Assembly: GCF_951230155.1 (NCBI RefSeq)
Contig: NZ_CATNVD010000001.1
Location: 372,001 to 436,000 of the forward strand
Reading direction: 5' to 3'
Length of the DNA: 64,000 bases
From: Parablautia sp. Marseille-Q6255
Lineage (GTDB): Bacteria > Bacillota > Clostridia > Lachnospirales > Lachnospiraceae
This document shows positions 1 through 1,991 of this stretch, one piece after another. The notes beneath the pieces were generated by a model. The model was not told the origin of the DNA. It made no database searches and saw only the letters and a program-made list of their open reading frames with translations. Position 1 is the first letter of the stretch. Each line of letters begins with the position of its first letter. The position numbers and the translations under genes are program-made.

Positions 1-644
1 TCATCACAGATCTCAAAGATCTCATCCATCTTATGAGAAATGTAGATCAGTGAGATCCCCTGCTCCTTGAGCATACGCATCATTCCGAAAAGCTTCTCTA
101 CCTCCTGTACGGTCAGGGACGAGGTAGGCTCATCCAGAACGATTACCTTTGCATTATAGGAGATCGCCTTTGCGATCTCACACATCTGCCGCTGTGAAAC
201 AGACATATTTCTCATCGGCTGTGTCAGGTTTACGGTCATGCCAAGCTTTCTGAAAAGCTCAGACGCTTCTTTTTTCATTCTGCCCTCATCGACTATCCCC
301 ATCGAGTTGACCGGATAGCGGCCGAGAAACAGATTATCGATCACGTTGCGCTCCAGACACTGGTTCAACTCCTGATGCACCATCGCGATACCGTTTTCAA
401 GAGCATCCTTCGGACCTGAGAAGCTTACTTCCTTTCCATCAAGGAAGATGCTTCCCTCATCCTTCTGGTATGTACCAAAAAGACATTTCATCATTGTTGA
501 CTTACCGGCGCCATTTTCTCCCATGAGTCCCATAACCGTGCCGCGCTTCACATTCAGATTGATGTGATCGAGGACCCGGTTGCGTCCAAAGGACTTGCTC
601 ATGCCGCGTATCGATAAGACAATATCATCTTTCTTATCTGCCAT
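1..644 (-). CDS. mglA: Sugar ABC transporter ATP-binding protein, MglA type (3' end outside window)
   Basis: This is the ATPase of a galactose/methyl-galactoside type importer; it binds and hydrolyses ATP on the cytoplasmic face to drive sugar uptake. About 214 codons are present. Visible motifs are the Walker A GENGAGKST at residues 42-50, a Q-loop (MVHQELNQ), a signature region reading SVSQRQMCEIAKA, the Walker B VIVLDEPTSSL and the switch histidine in YISHKMDEIFEICD. The family is about 500 residues with two tandem ATPase domains, so the second domain lies beyond the left edge. The ATG at 644 is preceded by an AGGAG site. It follows the binding-protein gene, with a strong hairpin between them. 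The MglA assignment rests on similarity and on the neighbour. Confidence 0.9.
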   Translation of the reverse strand, partial: MADKKDDIVLSIRGMSKSFGRNRVLDHINLNVKRGTVMGLMGENGAGKSTMMKCLFGTYQKDEGSIFLDGKEVSFSGPKDALENGIAMVHQELNQCLERNVIDNLFLGRYPVNSMGIVDEGRMKKEASELFRKLGMTVNLTQPMRNMSVSQRQMCEIAKAISYNAKVIVLDEPTSSLTVQEVEKLFGMMRMLKEQGISLIYISHKMDEIFEICD

Positions 645-703
645 TTTTTTACTCCTGTATACATGGTTTACTGTGTTTTCATACAAATTTTCCCGAACAA
701 AAG

Positions 704-755: not shown

Positions 756-1991
756 TTACTGATTAAGCAGAGCTGTGTAAGAAGCTGCGTTGTCTGTCTT
801 AACCATGTTGATCGCAAATGCATCATACTGGCTCGGGTTTCCAAGACGGTTTGTAATGTTGGACTCTGTCTGTCCGTCACCGCCGATGTATTCAACCTCA
901 AGGTTCAGAATGTCATCATAGTTCTGAAGCAGCGGCTGGTATGTGGAGCTCAGGAAGTTATCAGCTGCATTGTAGATATTGAGCCATACCTTCTTAACCG
1001 GTGATGTAGCCTCATCCAGCTGGTTGGATACCGGCTCATAAACCTTTGTAGAATCTGTGAACTCTTCGTAGTTCTCAGCTGTAACTGCTACGTTCAGTGC
1101 ATAGTAGGAACGCTGCTCCTCGTTGTATACATATACATCCTCAGAAAGAACATTGCCTGCCTCATCTGCTGTACCGATACCTGTGTCAATATCAACACCG
1201 TCAAGAGCGTTACGAAGCACACGAAGTGTCAGGTAAGCCTGTACGTCTGCATGCTGGCTGATCGTTCCGCCGTATCCCTCTGCGATCGCTGCTACTGCAT
1301 CGTTGTTTGCATCGTATCCGAATGTCGGAACCTTGTTATCTTTTGACCATGCGTTGAACATGGACATTCCCATACCATCGTTGTTGGAAACTACTACATC
1401 GATCTGATCGCCGAAAGAAGAAGACCATGTACCGATCGCATTTCCTGCTGTAGCTGCATCCCATGTAGCACCTGCAGAGTTCTTCATCTCCTGAGAAGCC
1501 AGCTCACGAACTGTATATGTTGTTCCGTCAACTTCCAGTGTACCATCCTGAACAACTGTTGCAGAACCGTCTGTATTTGTACCAACCGGCTCGCTGTTGA
1601 TGTTGCCGTCTTTGTCTACGCCTGTGCCGAGAGCCTTGCGGACACCTCTTGTACGTGCGATAGAATCGTTATGTCCGATATCGCCGATTGCCAGAACATA
1701 TCCGATCACACCGTCACCATTACGGTCAATCGTTGCCGCATTTGCCTTGATGTAATCAAGAACCATCGTACCCTGAAGTTCTGCACCCTGATTTGCATCA
1801 AAGCCTACATAATATGTATTGTCGTTGAAGGAAAGCGCTGCCATATCGAGCTCACCTGTAGAGCTGTTAGACGGCTGGCGGTTAAACCATACGAGCGGCT
1901 TATCCTTGTTTGCCACTTCGCCCTCTGCGGAAGCTGTAAGGGAAAGACCCATAACTGCTGCCATTGTCAATACAAATAATTTCTTTTTCAT
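756..1991 (-). CDS. mglB: Galactose/glucose-type ABC substrate-binding protein, apparently circularly permuted
   Basis: This is the extracytoplasmic sugar receptor for the importer. The ATG at 1991 has a GGAGGA site and begins a signal peptide (residues 1-22, ending TASA). The mature chain starts directly at PLVWFNRQPSN (32-42), which matches the middle of lobe 1 of E. coli MglB (PVVFFNKEPS). It then runs in the usual order: YYVGFDANQG, an EF-hand-like loop DRNGDGVIG, GHNDSIARTRG, VVVSNNDGMGM and VPTFGYDA. The segment that normally opens the protein (KKVWLNIYNAADNF to DAFAINMVKTDNAA) is instead the last 80 or so residues, about 330-411. The order is that of a circular permutant with a roughly 20-residue linker joining the old ends. 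There is no lipobox cysteine, unlike most Gram-positive binding proteins. Confidence 0.85.
   Translation of the reverse strand: MKKKLFVLTMAAVMGLSLTASAEGEVANKDKPLVWFNRQPSNSSTGELDMAALSFNDNTYYVGFDANQGAELQGTMVLDYIKANAATIDRNGDGVIGYVLAIGDIGHNDSIARTRGVRKALGTGVDKDGNINSEPVGTNTDGSATVVQDGTLEVDGTTYTVRELASQEMKNSAGATWDAATAGNAIGTWSSSFGDQIDVVVSNNDGMGMSMFNAWSKDNKVPTFGYDANNDAVAAIAEGYGGTISQHADVQAYLTLRVLRNALDGVDIDTGIGTADEAGNVLSEDVYVYNEEQRSYYALNVAVTAENYEEFTDSTKVYEPVSNQLDEATSPVKKVWLNIYNAADNFLSSTYQPLLQNYDDILNLEVEYIGGDGQTESNITNRLGNPSQYDAFAINMVKTDNAASYTALLNQ

Follow-up and report, generated by a model that had tools for sequence, protein, structure and literature searches.

A naturally circularly permuted MglB-type sugar-binding protein of Parablautia sp. 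Marseille-Q6255, a relative of Tp0684 encoded with an N-terminally extended MglC

Near the left end of the window, as we call the whole stretch of 64,000 nucleotides analysed here (Parablautia sp. Marseille-Q6255, contig NZ_CATNVD010000001.1, positions 372,001 to 436,000), lies a gene whose product resembles the galactose-binding protein MglB with its sequence blocks in rotated order. This raises the question of whether the gene encodes a true circular permutant of MglB and, if so, where the moved block came from and what the protein does. The rotated order claimed in the original prediction was confirmed on a minus-strand ORF of 411 aa (ATG at 1991, TAA at 756-758, RBS AAGGAGG upstream; Table 1), and the parts lie where they had been placed. 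A signal peptide stands at the new N-terminus, and directly after it the sequence from residue 31 onward, KPLVWFNRQPSN, corresponds in the alignment to PVVFFNKEPS, around residue 85 of mature E. coli MglB, so the mature protein does open at the equivalent strand. The usual C-terminal part of MglB ends with ALNVAVTAENYEEF (residues 298-311), and a short linker of about 20 residues (312-331) joins it to residues 332-411, VKKVWLNIYNAADNF...YDAFAINMVKTDNAASYTALLNQ, the block that opens an ordinary MglB and is here C-terminal.

Table 1. Positions of the permuted gene, its sequence blocks and the neighbouring mgl genes (window positions unless a genome locus is given)
Feature	Position	Strand	Basis or remark
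Circularly permuted MglB-type glucose/galactose-binding protein, 411 aa	756..1991	-	ORF and RBS; collinear with 5jx2; PF18610 and PF13407 matches
Signal peptide with a short spacer (about residues 1-27); no lipobox cysteine	1911..1991	-	sequence
Residues 31-311, corresponding to mature E. coli MglB from about 85 to its C-terminus; contains inserts specific to the family	1059..1901	-	alignments
Junction linker, residues 312-331, from old C-terminus to old N-terminus	999..1058	-	alignment
Moved block (residues 332-411), counterpart of about 3-84 in mature E. coli MglB; includes D344 and F346	759..998	-	alignments, profiles
mglA, 5' part; ATPase gene next in line, runs past left window edge	3..686	-	followed beyond the edge by mglC
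mglC with N-terminal extension	G000:C1:369462-371117 (L012 7462-9117)	minus	just left of window

Alignment to mature E. coli MglB supports this layout. With a single reference, the best local alignment scores 240 and stops at residue 265, and it reaches the N-terminus only through a poor opening stretch of some 25 residues, which starts in the signal peptide and pairs with MglB positions 54 and up at little similarity; a linear alignment over the N-terminus, which would have spoken against permutation, was therefore not found. With a doubled reference, the check that the original prediction had proposed, the alignment continues to residue 408 and scores 256 (maximum of 200 shuffles, 71), a modest gain, given how short and diverged the moved block is. 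Among the best eight rotated references listed, starts 78 to 85 (counted from 0) tie at 252, and start 85 corresponds to PVVFFNKEPS. Taken alone, the moved block scores 46 against residues 1-87 of E. coli MglB, a value equalled in 2 of 1000 shuffles, versus 25 against the remainder, equalled in 834 of 1000; instead of forming an unrelated domain, the last 80 residues resemble the first 80 of MglB. Profile models divide the protein in a similar manner. PF18610 (Peripla_BP_7), the Pfam family for the moved block, matches at residues 333-402 (E 4e-42), and PF13407 matches residues 57-265 only from its own position 94 on. A canonical MglB would be linear and cover the equivalog model NF011924 in one stretch at more than 420 bits; the window protein is permuted and reaches 95.7 bits in two stretches, although the curated cut-off of 420 bits is no test on its own, as it is reached in none of 199 genomes of the phylum, linear MglBs among them.

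The protein has closer relatives than E. coli MglB. A phmmer search of PDB sequences placed 5jx2, the Treponema pallidum protein Tp0684 (MglB-2), first (E 7e-93, collinear over residues 28-409); 5jx2, 6bgd and 6bgc are all collinear with it over residues 27/28-409 (E 7.1e-93 to 6.6e-91), whereas E. coli-type MglBs match in two pieces at E about 1e-20. Tp0684 was described in 2016 as circularly permuted relative to E. coli MglB, as bilobed with the N-lobe strand order 5-4-6-1-2-3 and a fourth cross-over, and as binding glucose with a conformational change; the names Type Ic and Cluster Bc were proposed for substrate-binding proteins (SBPs) of this kind, and relatives were noted in Gram-positive gut bacteria (PMC4990184). 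Collinearity with a protein that is itself described as permuted supports a natural circular permutation of an MglB-type protein. The novelty implied by the original prediction does not stand, as the arrangement has been in print since 2016 and occurs in many gut Firmicutes: the window protein is a further example of a described permuted type, and the arrangement itself was already known. The two proteins share their block order over the matched 382 residues, their sugar-binding positions, including a glutamine for N256, and their departures in the calcium loop (in the window protein, G97 for Q142 and D198 for E205). They differ in that Tp0684 has N311 where the window protein has D344, and in that the window protein lacks the lipoprotein cysteine and carries some longer inserts. 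With its C-terminal N-block, its collinearity with Tp0684 and its retained sugar-binding residues, it belongs to Type Ic/Cluster Bc (TpMglB-2-like, PF18610). We base the fold on homology to 5jx2 because our own AlphaFold2 models, built with 5 and 38 close homologues, are of low confidence (pTM 0.49 and 0.51); a Foldseek search with the low-confidence model from 38 homologues also returned 5jx2, 6bgd and 6bgc first, at TM-scores of 0.37-0.39 and an rmsd of 12 Å or more.

In regard to function, ten sugar-binding positions were mapped from the E. coli and T. pallidum lists in Table 2 of PMC4990184. E. coli MglB (GGBP; 1glg, 2fvy) aligns with the window protein over all blocks, and nine of the ten residues are identical (D344, F346, N37, H107, D109, R113, W177, N204 and D227); the tenth is Q246 in place of E. 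coli N256, as in Tp0684. Eight of these positions lie in residues 31-311, and D344 and F346 lie in residues 332-411. Across 85 permuted sequences nine of the ten are invariant; the exception is the D344 position, where 84 sequences have D and Tp0684 has N. The gene order is SBP, ATPase, permease, with mglA following the permuted gene and mglC lying beyond the left edge; the E. coli system differs in the linear order of its MglB, which has no junction linker, and in its MglC of 336 aa, which has no extension. Because the binding positions are conserved and mglA and mglC follow, we conclude, with a probability of roughly 0.94, that the gene product serves an MglABC (CUT2) glucose/galactose importer as its SBP, in a circularly permuted version of the canonical MglB chain. 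Such a protein would have a bilobed fold with a fourth cross-over between the lobes, for which the junction linker would be the place by analogy with Tp0684. Glucose, and perhaps galactose, would be held in the cleft, and a Venus-flytrap closing would precede delivery of the sugar to MglC and MglA.

Two other accounts of the gene deserve weighing against its reading as a transporter SBP. The order could be an artefact of assembly, or a frameshifted fused gene pair, and the window genome is indeed a draft of 40 contigs; yet 80 contigs of other records, the best 80 of 464 relatives, each have a gene whose match begins by residue 26 and extends to residue 406 at least, and a homologue has a crystal structure (5jx2), which leaves this explanation with a negligible chance. 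It is also very unlikely, though not to that degree, that the permuted protein is a sensor for a neighboring two-component system instead of a transporter SBP. What suggests it is a cluster about 14-20 kb from the permuted gene, with other genes between (G000:C1:352914-358437; L013, L141), which encodes a linear MglB lipoprotein, a second SBP, a Cache-type histidine kinase and an AraC-type response regulator. In the best 80 of the 464 related loci, which extend to a 10 kb flank or less, a linear MglB occurs in 54, and 48 of those have it on the strand of the permuted gene, at a distance of 7-11.5 kb downstream; on an Agathobacter rectalis plasmid the permuted SBP gene is followed in turn by those for ATPase, permease, response regulator, kinase, SBP and linear MglB. 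Against a sensor role, the permuted gene stands directly before mglA and mglC, and the better sensor candidate is the linear lipoprotein inside the kinase cluster (G000:C1:352914-353957). That protein belongs to the MglB family like the window protein (NF011924, E 2.8e-69), but it is linear, has a lipobox and adjoins the kinase and response regulator genes, none of which holds for the window protein. Judging from these neighborhoods, it is likely that the linear MglB senses and the permuted one transports.

A further rival concerns the source of the moved block. The C-terminal 80 residues could come from a different gene by fusion, their likeness to MglB being convergent. The 2016 authors considered a different-gene source possible for Tp0684, whose last 100 residues share 13% identity with the first 100 of E. 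coli MglB (PMC4990184). The single-sequence score of the moved block is likewise low, though few shuffles equal it, and most single MglBs score no higher than other SBPs against it: MglBs reach at most 34.3 and have a median of 15.4, which falls below the top score of 18.7 among 29 further PF13407 proteins of the window genome, six of these being LacI-type regulators. Profiles speak against a fusion. A moved-block profile from 85 permuted sequences (84 in an earlier version) was searched against 297 ORFs from fetched linear loci, and the ten best distinct matches are all MglBs, of which the top two, L024 (E 4.3e-6) and L154 (E 4.9e-6), are in register with the MglB N-terminus; the first non-MglB ORF, an unrelated one, appears at E 0.22, with E. 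coli MglB just behind at E 0.27. In a profile-profile comparison, the moved block aligns with the MglB N-terminal block nearly over its whole length, 75 columns in register (E 5.4e-6, probability 86% for this one pair), versus E 0.18 for the rest of MglB. These single-sequence and profile-profile comparisons drew on 51 distinct MglBs, with L025 and L173, which are short or partial, left out. In addition, the equivalents of the sugar-binding residues D14 and F16 are kept in 84 and 85 of the 85 permuted sequences, respectively. A fusion is therefore improbable, and because the moved block resembles MglB N-termini, true permutation is favored over fusion with an unrelated gene; at the level of sequence comparison, MglB's own N-terminus is the best-supported source. 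As a separate observation, a linear mgl operon in another genome (G048, L142 4537-5565) has a second, diverged MglB after mglC; of the single sequences compared, the N-terminal block of this MglB matches the permuted C-terminal block most closely.

The permutation most likely arose, we infer, by duplication of mglB and partial losses: the first copy would have lost its N-terminal block and the second copy its remainder, events that would leave the signal peptide before the new N-terminus. In a quick tree, a single branch (SH-aLRT 92) sets apart the 14 permuted sequences, two of them from Treponema, and they lie outside all 49 linear MglBs sampled; their point of attachment is unsure, as the branch leading to them is long and the outgroup does not form a single clade. 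A derivation from the window genome's own linear MglB was considered and is not supported by this placement of the permuted clade, unsure as it is. A single origin accounts for the permuted members sampled, with descent or lateral transfer explaining why Treponema and Firmicutes share them.

PF18610 occurs in 32 of 299 genomes of the window's family and in 2 of 398 genomes of its phylum, the window genome included in both. A whole-protein search matched 12 of 60 near genomes, seven of them weakly over about 70-95 residues in the manner of linear MglBs; five, the window's own included, have permuted copies, one of which (G018) is partial. A scan of contigs found 464 relatives, of which the best 80 were retained, each matching from residue 26 or earlier to residue 406 or later; judged by record titles, most of these come from Lachnospiraceae or from genera commonly assigned to that family. 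The Agathobacter rectalis copy is 85% identical to the window protein and a Treponema saccharophilum plasmid copy 46%. In both species the permuted mgl operon is plasmid-borne (A. rectalis NZ_CP143948.1, L197; T. saccharophilum pTS2, L196), and on the A. rectalis plasmid it lies near MobA/MobL, integrase and IS91-family transposase genes, a setting that is consistent with lateral movement. Among viral contigs, 38 stretches matched a peptide pattern and none encodes a relative.

The permease encoded with the window protein is itself unusual. This MglC has 551 residues, about 215 of which precede the BPD_transp_2 domain (256-539). Searches with the extension gave no Pfam match at E 0.01 and, among PDB sequences, nothing better than E 0.1; a likeness to septin-2 at E 0.1 was dismissed as a chance helical match. 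Its composition (40% D, E, K, R or H; few P and G), the lack of a hydrophobic stretch before residue 220 and the lack of a family match lead us to predict a cytoplasmic, helical segment. In the best 80 of the 464 related loci, the extension is found in all 75 with a readable MglC, five ending before it; two MglCs of permuted loci are broken by frame, three are cut by locus ends and three have 508 residues. The extension and PF18610 occur in the same 32 of 299 family genomes, two of them weak cases (G697, cut by a contig end, and G657, which matches over only 30 residues and on another contig), and in the same 2 of 398 phylum genomes. In the 562-residue MglC of T. saccharophilum, the extension profile matches the first part at E 5.9e-11, in a search of 5 sequences with a large composition bias, and at E 5.6e-9 in a second search. 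The extension is absent from all 20 linear-MglB operons examined (18 fetched, plus L142 and L143), whose 19 complete MglCs have 328-367 residues. The passages of the 2016 study on the permease gene mention it for a similar distribution and make no mention of an extension (PMC4990184), and a search of open-licence literature found no published description of one. The two genes share an operon, so inheritance as a unit could be enough to account for their pairing. We raise only tentatively, and think it rather doubtful, that permuted MglB and extended MglC form one co-evolved, mutually dependent importer type shared by Firmicutes and treponemes, which in the window's genus would also work with a binding protein free of a lipid anchor. 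If true, this type would be distinct from canonical MglABC and would reflect more than joint inheritance, and the recurrence of the pairing across two phyla makes it worth testing.

The window protein also bears on a published rationale for the permuted topology. Membrane tethering was seen as a commonality of permuted SBPs, and the topology as perhaps an adaptation to anchoring (PMC4990184). None of the 411 residues of the window protein is a cysteine, and it lacks a lipobox. Of the best 80 of 464 relatives, 73 have a lipobox, the first strand being preceded by a median of 57 residues, and seven do not; six of the seven have a short N-terminus (30-33 residues) like that of the window protein, and the seventh (L057) has one unlike it. 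All four complete copies in the window's genus (the window's, L015, L016 and L017) are free of a lipobox. The window genome has both lgt and lspA. When 30 of its 36 other PF13407 places were inspected, with N-termini judged by eye, 18 proved to be exported SBPs without a lipobox, three to have one (L003, the linear MglB L114, and L123), six to be LacI-type regulators (L122 and L129 among them) and three to be unclear (L002, L121, L124). From the sequence, then, the lipid anchor appears to have been lost in the window protein with the permutation retained, and this weakens the tethering rationale, though an uncleaved signal peptide could serve as an alternative tether.

Our findings place the window protein firmly in the family that Tp0684 founded, and they address two points of the founding paper: the origin of the moved block, which looks MglB-derived, and the tethering advantage, which is weakened. 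The additions to this known family are the origin of the moved block, the MglC extension and the absence of the lipoprotein cysteine in the window protein. How a fold tolerates new termini can be learned from natural circular permutants whose linear parent is clear, and the pairing with an extended permease offers a new handle on what an importer built around a permuted MglB does differently.
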